A stretch of 64,000 nt of DNA, from positions 184,668 to 248,667 of the forward strand of contig CAMLTW010000003.1 in NCBI GenBank assembly GCA_946486375.1. The letters are read 5' to 3'. Made by a program: the position numbers and the translations under genes. Of the stretch, positions 14,318 through 17,458 are shown piece after piece; positions within the stretch are counted from its first letter, which is position 1; each line of letters starts with the position of its first letter. The notes beneath the pieces are model-generated. The model made no database searches and was not told the DNA's origin. It saw only the letters and a list, made by a program, of their open reading frames with translations. The DNA comes from an uncultured Rikenellaceae bacterium (GTDB lineage Bacteria; Bacteroidota; Bacteroidia; Bacteroidales; Rikenellaceae).

Positions 14318-15091
14318 ATGAAATTCCTCTATATCAACAACGATCTGTGCGCCGGTTGCGACAGGTGTTCCGGAATTTGTCCCACCGGAGCCATCTACGT
14401 TTCCGGCGGGAAGAAATACATCGACTACGATAAGTGCGTTTCCTGCGGGAACTGCTTTCGGGAATGCCTTCACCATGCCATCTCCATCGAAAAGATCGAG
14501 CGGATCACGCGGGAAATCGACCGGCTGGACGAACACCGGATGCGCATCGAGCACCTCGAACGGGAAAACCGGCGGCTTCGGGAGGAATCGTCCGCCCTTC
14601 TTTCCGGGTTCCGGACCCTCATCCGGAAATTTCCCGTAGCCGTCGCGCTGGCGGACGGAAACGGCTTCGTGCTGTGCGCCAATCCGGAGTTTATGGAACT
14701 GACCGGAACCGGGAACGGAAAAAACACTTCGGATGCAGGCGCATACGAAAATCTCCGGCAGTCTTTGCCTTCCGATCTGTACGATCTGGTTATGAATACC
14801 GCCCGCGGCGGGGAAGACATCGACGGAAAACTCGTCCGGCTGGGGAAACATCCGGTCAGTTTTTCGGTGTATGCTGTCGGAAAACGGGACATGGCGGTCG
14901 TGCTGCTGCGCGAGCTGCGGAGTGCATCCGTAAAGGGAGACGAGGTTGTCCGCCGGGTCAAGGGAAGCATCGACCGGCAGATGTCCATGGTGCAGAAAAT
15001 CGGTTTTCTGCTGGGAGAGGAGGTTTCGGAAATCTCCAAGAACCTGGATTCGGTCATCAAGATCGCGGAGGAGGACAGCCATGCCGGGTAA
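14318..15091 (+). CDS. Ferredoxin (2x[4Fe-4S])-PAS sensor protein
   Basis: 257 residues. The N-terminus holds two CxxCxxCxxxC clusters (Cys11, 14, 17, 21 and Cys40, 43, 46, 50), enough for two [4Fe-4S] centres. The second cluster motif ends in CLHHA rather than CP, a departure from classic ferredoxins. A coiled coil (about 58-92) leads to a PAS-like domain (about 92-200, including PVAVALADGNGFVLCANPEFMELTG), then a helical tail. No kinase or DNA-binding domain is present. The gene overlaps the SpoIIE-type phosphatase gene by 11 bases, so it probably senses redox or a ligand and controls that phosphatase. Similar pairs occur near [FeFe]-hydrogenase genes in anaerobes (family knowledge). Confidence 0.82.
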   Translation: MKFLYINNDLCAGCDRCSGICPTGAIYVSGGKKYIDYDKCVSCGNCFRECLHHAISIEKIERITREIDRLDEHRMRIEHLERENRRLREESSALLSGFRTLIRKFPVAVALADGNGFVLCANPEFMELTGTGNGKNTSDAGAYENLRQSLPSDLYDLVMNTARGGEDIDGKLVRLGKHPVSFSVYAVGKRDMAVVLLRELRSASVKGDEVVRRVKGSIDRQMSMVQKIGFLLGEEVSEISKNLDSVIKIAEEDSHAG

Positions 15092-16259
15092 ATGGTTCGC
15101 CGATATTGCGTTCGAGAGCCTGAACTGCGGCGGAGAGCGGATTTGCGGGGATACGTTCGCCTACCGTCGTATCCGGACGGAGCATCGGACGGTAGCCGTA
15201 CTTTCCGATGGCATGGGACACGGCGTGAAGGCCAACGTGCTTTCTACCCTGACGGCTTCCATGATGGTCAATTTCGCTCCGGTGAAGGAAGATATCGAAA
15301 GGAGCGCCCGCATCATTCTCAACAACCTGCCGGTATGCAGCGTCCGGAAAATCAGCTATTCCACCTTCACGGTCGTGGATATCGACCATGCGACGGAAGA
15401 GGTGGCCGTCGCGGAACACGACAATCCCCGGAGCATCGTGCTGCGCGAAAGCGAACCGCTGTCCCTGCAGCGGGAAGCGACCGTGATCCGGGGACACGGC
15501 AACCGTCCCCAGACCGTTTACACCTCCCGTTTCACCGCCCGACAGGGCGACCGGATCGTTTTGGTTTCCGACGGCATCACCCAAAGCGGTCGGGGAACCG
15601 ACGGGCAACCGTTCGGATGGGGAGAGGAACGGCTTGCGGAGTTCATCGGTCGGATCGTGCAACGAAATCCCCGACGGACTGCCGGTGAGTTGGCGATCGA
15701 CATCCTGAACGAAGCGTGGAATAATGACGGTCGGTGTTCCCAGGACGATATGAGCTGTGCCGTTATCCATTTCCGGGAGCCGAAACGGGTGTTGCTGGCC
15801 TCCTGCCCGCCCGCCCGCCGCAACCAGTACCGGGAGTACACGGCGACCATACGCGGATTCGACGGCACGAAAATCCTGTGCGGTCATCCGCTGGCGGAAA
15901 TATATGCACGCGAACAGCATGCCGACATCGTGCGCCCTTTCTCCGAAACGGGAGAGCCTTCTCCGGTGTGGCACATTCCGGGCATCGATCTGACCACCGA
16001 AGGTACCGGTGTACTCAGCCGGCTGTTCGATCTGCTCAGCGACGGGGATGCTTTTCCGCAGGAGCGGGAACCGGCGGCGGAGGTACGGCGTCTGCTGCTG
16101 TCGGGCGACGAAATCACCCTGATGATGGGAACCCGGAAAAACGCCGAAGAAAGCTCCTATTTTCCCGGCGAATTCGAACTGAGGCGGCAATTGCTGCGCA
16201 GGATCGCCTCCCTGCTGGAAAACCGTTACGGAAAAGAACTGAAAATCTGTTATATCTAA
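15081..16259 (+). CDS. SpoIIE-type PP2C serine phosphatase
   Basis: 392 residues. The N-terminal 240 or so form a PP2C/SpoIIE domain with metal-binding aspartates in GD (ICGDTFAY, Asp24), LSDGMGHG (Asp43), LVSDGIT and the QDDMSC motif. Such enzymes dephosphorylate serine on anti-anti-sigma (STAS) proteins or other partners in the cytoplasm. The C-terminal 150 residues match no family I recognise. The start at 15081 lies inside the sensor gene, an 11-base overlap implying translational coupling and a shared complex. No STAS or anti-sigma gene lies beside it, so the target is unknown. A C1 peptidase gene follows after 14 bases. Confidence 0.85.
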   Translation: MPGKWFADIAFESLNCGGERICGDTFAYRRIRTEHRTVAVLSDGMGHGVKANVLSTLTASMMVNFAPVKEDIERSARIILNNLPVCSVRKISYSTFTVVDIDHATEEVAVAEHDNPRSIVLRESEPLSLQREATVIRGHGNRPQTVYTSRFTARQGDRIVLVSDGITQSGRGTDGQPFGWGEERLAEFIGRIVQRNPRRTAGELAIDILNEAWNNDGRCSQDDMSCAVIHFREPKRVLLASCPPARRNQYREYTATIRGFDGTKILCGHPLAEIYAREQHADIVRPFSETGEPSPVWHIPGIDLTTEGTGVLSRLFDLLSDGDAFPQEREPAAEVRRLLLSGDEITLMMGTRKNAEESSYFPGEFELRRQLLRRIASLLENRYGKELKICYI

Positions 16260-16273
16260 TTCAAACGTAAATC

Positions 16274-17458
16274 ATGAAAAGAATCTGGATCGGATGGCTG
16301 GCCTGTTTCCTGTTGGGTGGAACGGCCGCGGCGCAGGACACGGCCAAATACGTGTTCACGGACATCAAGGTACTGAAAACGACCCCTGTCAAGAATCAGA
16401 GCAGTTCGGGCACCTGTTGGAGTTTTTCCGGCATCGGACAGCTCGAAAGCGAACTGCTGCGAACAGGCAGTGCGGACACCCTCCTTTCGGACATGTGGAT
16501 CGTTCGTCATGCGTATCGGGACAAAGCCGAAAAATTTGTCCGGCTGGACGGCACCTCCAATTTCGGCCCGGGCGGAAACACGCACGATATCTATTACGTG
16601 ATCCGGAAATACGGCATGGTTCCGGAAGAGGTTTACCGAGGCCTCAACTACGGAACGGACAAACACGTGCACGGAGAGCTGGACGCCGTGATGGCAGCTT
16701 ACGTGAAAGCGGTGGCGAAAGATCCGAACGGAACGCTTTCGACGGCCTGGCTGAAAGGGATTGACGGGATTCTGGACGCTTATTTGGGGCCGGTTCCGGA
16801 AAAATTCGTCTACCGGGGAAAGGAGTACACTCCGCAAAGCTTCGCCGCTTCGCTGGGGCTGAACTGGGACGATTACGTTTCCCTGACCTCTTTCACCCAT
16901 CATCCTTTCTACACCCGGTTCGCTCTGGAAATTCCGGACAACTGGCTGTGGGGACTCTCCTACAACGTGCCGATGGAAGACCTGGAGCGGGTCATCGACA
17001 GTTCCATCGACCAGGGGTATACGGTGACGTGGGCTTCGGACGTGAGCGAAAAGGGATTTCAGTACAGAAAAGGATTCGCCGTGGTTCCGGCGACCCGGCC
17101 GGAAGAGATCGCCGGTTCCGATCAGGCCCGCTGGACGGGGCTTTCCCCCGAAGACCTGACACGGATGAGCGCGGCTTTGGAAGGCATGGTGCCCGAAAAG
17201 GCCGTCACTCAGGAAGACCGGCAGAAAGCCTTCGACAACTACCAGACGACCGACGACCACGGGATGCTGATCGTCGGGATTGCGAAAGACCAGAACGGCA
17301 ACAAATTTTACAAGGTGAAAAACTCCTGGGGCGATTCCAACCTTTATCACGGGTATTTTTACGTCTCCCCGACCTTTGTGAAATACAAGACCACCAACCT
17401 GATGGTGAACAAGCATGCGATTCCGAAGGATCTGCGGCGGAAGCTGGGGTTGAACTGA
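16274..17458 (+). CDS. Exported C1-family cysteine aminopeptidase (PepC/bleomycin hydrolase-like)
   Basis: 394 residues, shorter than the about 450 of typical PepC. A signal peptide (residues 1-20, ending TAAAQ) marks export, unlike cytoplasmic PepC. The papain-like catalytic set is intact: Gln42 and Cys48 in VKNQSSSGTCWSFS, His329 in DDHGM and Asn350 in KNSWG. C1B enzymes remove residues from peptide N-termini. It follows the SpoIIE-type gene by 14 bases and may be transcribed with it, but the functional link is not obvious. It ends at a strong bidirectional terminator. Confidence 0.92.
   Translation: MKRIWIGWLACFLLGGTAAAQDTAKYVFTDIKVLKTTPVKNQSSSGTCWSFSGIGQLESELLRTGSADTLLSDMWIVRHAYRDKAEKFVRLDGTSNFGPGGNTHDIYYVIRKYGMVPEEVYRGLNYGTDKHVHGELDAVMAAYVKAVAKDPNGTLSTAWLKGIDGILDAYLGPVPEKFVYRGKEYTPQSFAASLGLNWDDYVSLTSFTHHPFYTRFALEIPDNWLWGLSYNVPMEDLERVIDSSIDQGYTVTWASDVSEKGFQYRKGFAVVPATRPEEIAGSDQARWTGLSPEDLTRMSAALEGMVPEKAVTQEDRQKAFDNYQTTDDHGMLIVGIAKDQNGNKFYKVKNSWGDSNLYHGYFYVSPTFVKYKTTNLMVNKHAIPKDLRRKLGLN

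Follow-up and report, generated by a model that had tools for sequence, protein, structure and literature searches.

Two overlapping genes in an uncultured Rikenellaceae bacterium probably form a two-gene signalling unit that descends from the HydS-SpoIIE hydrogen-sensing phosphatase and now works as a redox- or PAS-controlled Ser/Thr phosphatase; its input, the complex between its two proteins and its substrate we infer. The pair lies on contig C3 of a genome of 3.13 Mb (33 contigs, 100% complete), within the window, the stretch of 64,000 nucleotides (nt) analysed here (CAMLTW010000003.1, positions 184,668 to 248,667). The first gene encodes a sensor and the second a SpoIIE-type phosphatase, and a paralogous pair stands in a hydrogenase operon of the same genome. 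Read from their sequences, the two copies appear to have decayed reciprocally, a pattern that is new: window-type pairs have lost the predicted H2-binding domain and would keep catalysis, and the HydS-linked copy presents the converse.

A predicted HydS derivative without the H-cluster domain

Homology at both ends points to a sensor derived from HydS by loss of its centre. All 98 HydS proteins of more than 500 amino acids (aa) that we drew from the neighbourhoods of phosphatase relatives match the window sensor in blastp (E<=1e-3; best 3e-19, over the PAS domain and tail). In 31 of the 98 there are separate, colinear matches to the N-terminal ferredoxin and to the C-terminal PAS-tail region, as in L076, where sensor residues 1-56 and 95-249 align with HydS residues 1-58 and 454-610. 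The HydS of the sensor's own genome matches sensor residues 5-58 and 97-254 and holds about 357 codons in between; the sensor's linker stands where full HydS proteins carry their H-cluster and Fe-S parts (about 357-395 residues). The H-cluster domain PF02906 gave no match in the window sensor down to E=1, and the [4Fe-4S] motif PF04060, which precedes the PAS domain, is not in it either; the own-genome HydS has both (1e-29 and 4.3e-06). Because the colinear matches reach both ends of HydS, we read the sensor as HydS minus its H-cluster domain and the Fe-S motif that follows, and not as a design of independent origin; the original prediction, made from the letters of the window, had seen a ferredoxin-PAS sensor.

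What remains of the sensor it shares with HydS: an N-terminal ferredoxin, a PAS domain, a conserved tail and a SpoIIE partner are all found in the window pair. Fer4 (PF00037) scores 44.9 bits against a cut-off of 21.1 and covers two complete four-Cys [4Fe-4S] motifs, as had been predicted. The PAS domain, also predicted, falls below the Pfam cut-offs when taken alone (PF13188 at 15.3 of 21.8 bits, PF00989 at 15.1 of 22.6), and is backed by homology: residues 97-254 align with the PAS domain and tail of the own-genome HydS (3.2e-11), in which the PAS domain exceeds its cut-off (PF13188, 8.5e-08). A Pfam scan of the sensor found no output domain, consistent with the earlier view that the separate phosphatase would supply the output.

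The conserved tail is the part common to every kind of sensor. The motif MVQKIGFLLGE and its variants are kept in full HydS proteins and in ferredoxin-PAS, PAS-only and PAS-PAS sensors, and the tail is therefore likely to be the contact to the phosphatase. The PAS-PAS sensors, of 308 aa, occur in L106, L110 and L111, where they read as two PAS domains followed by the HydS tail, contain neither ferredoxin nor H-domain, and stand ahead of an intact phosphatase. They appear to be an independent swap of the input.

A SpoIIE-type phosphatase with an additional C-terminal domain

The downstream protein is a predicted Ser/Thr phosphatase of the SpoIIE-type PPM/PP2C kind that keeps its catalytic residues. 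PF07228 (SpoIIE) spans residues 34-231 with 66.8 bits against a cut-off of 25. An AlphaFold2 model (pLDDT 86.3, pTM 0.81) places a PP2C domain ahead of an alpha/beta domain, and Foldseek matched the model best to 3pu9 (1.2e-14) and to SpoIIE 5mqh at 8.2e-14. D43, D164 and D222/223 align with the SDG, SDG and DD motifs of SpoIIE chains, and we take the first Asp of the DD motif to be D795 of SpoIIE. The metal-ligand Asp residues of SpoIIE are D628, D746 and D795 (PMC8080068).

The C-terminal domain (CTD) of the phosphatase was said at first reading to belong to no known family, and its last ~155 residues indeed have no Pfam match. Among 47 CTD relatives, Pfam matches were few and weak (best E 0.021), with no single family hit in more than 6 of the 47, comparison by sequence with solved structures gave nothing convincing (best 0.18), and the CTD of a Marinifilum homologue, modelled alone at pLDDT 91.2, had no Foldseek match at E<=0.001. 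VIA-align placed the same CTD nearest to a formyltransferase/hydrolase chain (Z 9.7), complex I chain G (8.9) and formylmethanofuran dehydrogenase chains (8.2-8.7), which we take to be FhcB, NuoG and FwdB; such scores equal or barely exceed what the tool describes as common for models without a clear match. Assignment to a known family was rejected on these results, and because the VIA scores lie near background we call the modelled domain only Rossmann-like. The window CTD is without the G[GA]TT and HQDP motifs of its relatives (CGHP at 15879; GTRKNAEESSYFP). Stand-alone CTD copies of 169-214 aa occur in five family genomes (L171:5774-6418, L172:4545-5162, L173:6943-7464, L174:654-1196 and L175:5122-5631), and those in L171-L173 directly precede [2Fe-2S]-HydA genes, with no HydS. 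A lone CTD adjoining HydA suggests a hydrogenase-side role for the domain.

Association with HydS and hydrogenases across the order

Relatives of the phosphatase across the order tie it to HydS and to hydrogenases. We sampled 150 genomes of the family Rikenellaceae and 295 of the order. In the order we counted a phosphatase relative as full-length when its best match reached E<=1e-20; of 121 genomes with a match at E<=0.001, 20 had none that strong and were dropped. PF02906 proteins occur in all 101 phosphatase-bearing genomes of the order (at least two in each) and in 99 of the remaining 194; Fisher's test, with no correction for kinship, gives p 9e-23. Within the family, a hydrogenase is present in 34 of the 37 genomes with any phosphatase match and in 40 of the 113 with none; the three hydrogenase-less exceptions (G298, G315 and G353) are 64-78% complete. 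Homologues are thus not consistently found in hydrogenase-free genomes, in agreement with the hydrogenase connection first proposed.

Most phosphatase relatives directly follow a HydS gene. The 80 regions surveyed across the order (L048-L127) hold 81 relatives, and 76 of these come after a HydS, which exceeds 500 aa in 75 cases and is cut by the contig end in L074. The exceptions are the three loci with PAS-PAS sensors and two, L089 and L126, without HydS directly upstream. HydS proteins come in two sizes, type I of about 615-690 aa and type II of about 567-610 aa, and a type II HydS-SpoIIE pair often precedes a [2Fe-2S] protein and HydA.

The window phosphatase belongs with type I. A sensor with coil and PAS and without hydrogenase domain precedes the phosphatase in 28 of the 29 family type I copies read, the window included; since 101 of the 295 order genomes have a full-length relative and the sensor recurs in this way, the pair is not a chance arrangement. 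The one exception is in G298, where no hydrogenase was found, the window-type phosphatase (L176) is decayed and the sensor is gone. L176:3708-5831 holds a 302-aa relative of the window phosphatase that has lost its catalytic motifs; we classed it as type I by its best match, the window phosphatase, and by the C1-peptidase gene that it shares with the window and that follows 28 nt on. Counted by reading, 30 family genomes carry type I, 27 of them also type II, and the three lacking type II have a completeness of 64-78%. Many genomes of the family are draft metagenome-assembled genomes, and many loci end within a few kb.

Reciprocal decay of two paralogous pairs

The genome of the window holds a second HydS-SpoIIE pair in a hydrogenase operon. 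Three PF02906 proteins are encoded in this genome, on contigs C1 and C2, and the window phosphatase has one full-length paralogue (L016:11426-12598, on C1), 33% identical over residues 15-391. Upstream of the paralogue lies a HydS-like protein of 578 aa (Fer4, Fe_hyd_lg_C 1e-29, FeS and PAS_8 8.5e-08), and the two genes overlap by 11 nt here as well (L016:11426-11436). Downstream stand a thioredoxin-like protein with [2Fe-2S] character, HydA of group B type (TIGR04105, 522 bits) and a protein resembling flavodiiron proteins. No hydrogenase gene lies beside the window pair, so an hfs-type operon is found at the paralogous locus and not in the window. At the five catalytic Asp columns the paralogue reads G,E,E,K,E, and the SpoIIE protein of the HydS-HydA operon is likely a pseudophosphatase.

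Phylogeny places these losses in two clades of the family. In a quick maximum-likelihood tree of 130 phosphatases (rows under 340 aa left out; short search, no bootstrap), family type I forms one clade (SH-aLRT 100) nested in the 86-row clade of HydS-linked type I (99). Family type II is likewise a single clade (99); the tree flags several long branches, the window phosphatase among them (0.96). Absence of the H-domain takes three changes on the tree, in family type I, in the PAS-PAS group and in L089/L126. We scored the Asp columns of window residues D24, D43, D164, D222 and D223. All five are present in 27 of 28 readable family type I phosphatases (L176 being the exception), in 54 of 54 other type I, in 13 of 14 other type II and in the type II copies of genus g2, which belongs to the family and has no type I (4 of 4). 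Among readable family type II phosphatases the count is 0 of 21, with D222 lost in every one, and all 21 come, by reading, from genomes that also carry type I.

The other parts of the two pairs follow the same division. None of the 29 family type I rows has the CTD motif G[GA][TS][TS], although one of them, L152, ends ahead of the CTD; 26 of 27 family type II rows have it (the miss, L177, is cut), and so do nearly all remaining rows. Of the 27 family type II copies, 20 have HydS immediately upstream, and all 20 of these HydS proteins keep the four Cys of the H-cluster loops; L178 is cut by the contig end.

Kinase and substrate candidates

The substrate is probably not a canonical STAS protein, as none was found in the genome. 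STAS (PF01740) and STAS_2 (PF13466) had no match at E<=0.001 in a genome search that included positive controls, nor did DRTGG or Hanks kinases at the same threshold, and canonical partner switching was rejected on these grounds. HATPase_c_2 (PF13581), sought as the mark of an RsbW-like anti-sigma kinase, has four matches in the genome, all under the cut-off, in open frames of 421-1525 aa.

Elsewhere, some type I loci carry candidates for the kinase and substrate of HydS phosphatases (L093:15-1193 and L061:1940-3222). These are an ATPase resembling RsbW (PF13581), a pair of DRTGG proteins, or a PHP protein together with another HATPase. A protein combining PF06971 and PF02629, presumably a Rex-like redox repressor, adjoins HydS-SpoIIE at 13 loci (L117:15904-16572, the one scanned, and 12 others).

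A model for the pair

By analogy with published work on HydS and its phosphatase, on hfs and on the RsbU/RsbP linkers, the PAS-tail region of the sensor would control the window phosphatase, with redox state or a PAS ligand, rather than H2, as the present input. The two sensor [4Fe-4S] clusters would exchange electrons with the ferredoxin pool, the PAS domain would bind a ligand, or both. Either event could alter the conformation of coil, PAS and tail, and the tail would dock on its co-translated partner, at the helical switch in the PP2C domain. Docking would turn Ser/Thr dephosphorylation on or off, as RsbP and RsbU linkers do, and the output may tune hydrogenase or fermentation genes. A hydrogen signal might even so come to the active phosphatase by way of the paralogous HydS and its pseudophosphatase, with which the window phosphatase perhaps works together.

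Several observations weigh against this model. No hydrogenase gene adjoins type I loci of the family, and the genome has no match to STAS, STAS_2, DRTGG or Hanks kinase and only sub-cut-off matches to HATPase_c_2. The 28 family sensors hold two CxxCxxC motifs in 17 cases, one in 1 and none in 10, so a [4Fe-4S] input is not essential to the unit. Since family type I and family type II are each a single clade, the reciprocal loss appears to be one coupled history of two clades, unreplicated. Type I may, moreover, have been moving away from H2 sensing in any case. Among the 54 type I-size HydS proteins outside the family, 17 are missing one or more of the four H-cluster Cys (two or more in L050, L059, L066 and L092), and for type II-size HydS the count is 0 of 44. 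These 17 may no longer hold a normal H-cluster, and decay of the type I H-domain is thus a wider trend with the window lineage at its extreme. By itself this decay is not tied to loss of type II catalysis, and G079 has a type I phosphatase without HydS (L089) beside an intact type II (L090).

Alternative readings

The sensor may have changed simply because its regulon was lost, a possibility that we rate somewhat short of even. Most of the family would have lost HydABC, and the sensor, having shed a useless H2-binding part, would now signal redox or energy state in general and have no link with the HydS-type II operon. Neighbourhoods agree with this: outside the family, NuoE-like and NuoF-like genes each stand at 38 of 55 type I loci and a group A-type HydA at 31 of 55, mostly on the opposite strand, and these clusters, whose labels rest on one scanned representative each, are at 0 of 28 family type I loci. 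By reading, only 3 family genomes with type I have a group A hydrogenase, and the Cys losses outside the family fit the same account. The window genome, however, retains HydABC-type genes on another contig, and regulon loss accounts neither for the pair's strict co-occurrence with a type II copy nor for the missing active site of that copy.

A bolder alternative, which we consider rather doubtful, makes one heteromeric machine of the two paralogous pairs, with HydS and the pseudophosphatase bringing the H2 signal, the window pair bringing the redox signal and catalysis, and the phosphatase domains dimerising across pairs. We think it unlikely, too, that complementary degeneration split a duplicated H2-sensing phosphatase over two unlinked operons that now act together as a heteromeric H2-and-redox-gated phosphatase, a receptor-pseudoenzyme pairing; one copy, a pseudophosphatase, would have retained the H2-binding hydrogenase and the CTD, and the other, unable to perceive H2, the phosphatase. 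For the joint machine speaks the reciprocal way in which sensor, PP2C active site and CTD motif have decayed, as does the finding that all 21 readable family type II phosphatases, each without D222, share their genome with a type I copy; a related regulator that has no phosphatase activity, E. coli RssB, is known as well (PMC12143880). The coupled history behind the decay is, however, single, and the complex would be dispensable in G297, G346 and G365, whose type II locus has lost HydS and all of the PP2C domain; in G307 no HydS adjoins the type II phosphatase (L157).

Substitution rates cut both ways. Between family type II pairs of the same genus, dN/dS is 0.07-0.30 for PP2C and 0.05-0.12 for the CTD, a sign that the PP2C domain of the pseudophosphatase is still constrained; between genera, where synonymous sites are near saturation, it is 0.49-0.76 and 0.14-0.45, which fits slow decay too. 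Constraint on the type II PP2C domain is thus real but looser than elsewhere in the protein. In other families type I H-domains decay while type II catalysis is kept, which slightly lowers the odds of a joint machine. It is very improbable that the sensor is only a decaying HydS on its way out beside a constitutively active or idle phosphatase: the missing Fe-S parts, the CTD motifs lost from family type I, the decayed L176, the long window branch and a CTD dN/dS of about 1 between some distantly related type I copies (0.99 and 1.02) would suit such a remnant, but sensor and phosphatase have stayed together in nearly all family copies, neither the MVQKIGxLLGE-like tail nor any catalytic Asp has been lost, and close type I pairs give dN/dS of 0.12-0.21 for PP2C and 0.04-0.23 for the CTD.

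Features and neighbours in the window

The features of the pair and of its paralogous operon are collected in Table 1, including the gene overlap, whose length had been predicted correctly. No RNA structure was detected at the overlap (z = +1.44).

Table 1. Sensor and phosphatase genes of the window, their parts, and the paralogous operon
Feature	Position	Strand	Size or contig	Basis
Sensor gene, HydS-derived, H-cluster domain missing	14318..15091	+	257 aa	
2x[4Fe-4S] ferredoxin part, sensor N-terminus, residues 1-56	14318..14485	+		Fer4 PF00037 7.8e-12; blastp aligns to HydS 1-58
Sensor linker, residues 57-97, read as coiled coil	14486..14608	+		sequence reading
Sensor PAS domain, about residues 98-190	14609..14887	+		sub-threshold PF13188/PF00989 and HydS PAS homology
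Sensor C-terminal conserved tail, ...MVQKIGFLLGE...	14915..15088	+		common to full HydS proteins and PAS-PAS sensors
Sensor/phosphatase gene overlap	15081..15091	+	11 nt	
SpoIIE-type PP2C/PPM phosphatase gene, ATG at 15081	15081..16259	+	392 aa	
PP2C catalytic domain	15081..15776	+		Asp kept: D43 (15207-15209), D164 (15570-15572), D222/D223 (15744-15749)
Phosphatase C-terminal Rossmann-like domain (modelled)	15786..16256	+		no Pfam family
Paralogous operon HydS-SpoIIE-[2Fe-2S]-HydA	L016:9700-14394		contig C1	

Conservation in the neighbourhood does not extend beyond the pair, apart from one open reading frame (ORF). This C1-peptidase-like ORF, named by sight (no NCBIfam match), lies at window positions 16274-17458, 14 nt past the phosphatase, and was met elsewhere only at the decayed copy L176. 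A HydE gene (TIGR03956, 308 bits against a cut-off of 254.6) lies 4.4 kb upstream of the pair, about where the original prediction had put it, and the functional tie then drawn from its position did not hold up. Among 220 loci, some fetched twice, hydE matches appeared only in L080, L099 and L119, all from one other genus, and at 0 of 27 family type I loci, though many loci end within a few kb. The proximity of hydE looks coincidental, and it was rejected as a functional neighbour.

Implications and relation to known systems

Bacteroidales offer natural deletions in which the role of each part in relaying the H2 signal of sensory [FeFe]-hydrogenases can be directly tested. One phosphatase family occurs in a natural series, under a sensor with the H-domain, with ferredoxin and PAS only, or with PAS alone. 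In a group D enzyme, PMC13104023 reports, the C-terminal cluster did not respond to H2. The pattern predicts that gut-type bacteria, a group in which H2 production is important (PMC12578642), carry a pseudophosphatase in a hydrogenase operon, and it singles out a CTD able to stand alone beside a group B-type HydA gene. If true, the heteromer would be a bacterial receptor-pseudoenzyme pairing built from a hydrogenase. Among the matches listed in the Creative Commons-licensed literature, no title or abstract opening described SpoIIE together with a HydS devoid of its hydrogenase part, or a pseudophosphatase linked to HydS.

RsbP, RsbU and SpoIIE of Bacillus subtilis resemble the window pair in PP2C fold, metal-ligand Asp and the logic of PAS or coil input. 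Coiled-coil linkers dimerise phosphatase domains and so switch RsbU and, by prediction, the PAS-linked RsbP, according to PMC12143880. Unlike these proteins, the window sensor and phosphatase are separate, the phosphatase has an extra CTD, and the genome has no STAS match.

Closer still is HydS, the group C sensory [FeFe]-hydrogenase known from Ruminococcus albus and, as HydS, also from Thermotoga maritima. In R. albus a putative Ser/Thr phosphatase subunit accompanies it, and its proposed role is that of an H2 sensor (PMC6776011). The window pair shares the ferredoxin N-terminus, the C-terminal PAS domain and tail and, with R. albus, the adjacent phosphatase; it differs in a sensor without H-cluster domain and second Fe-S motif and in having no hydrogenase gene alongside.

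The hfsABCD operon of Thermoanaerobacterium supplies the counterpart of the paralogous locus, where genes of the same kinds occur: HfsB is a PAS-hydrogenase, HfsC a serine phosphatase and HfsD a HydA2-like protein. Deletion of hfsB raises ethanol yield, and the high yield depends on hfsC and hfsD, as stated in PMC5707799 and PMC11837493. In contrast to hfsABCD, the phosphatase of the paralogous locus is without its catalytic Asp, and the active-looking copy lies unlinked, in the window.

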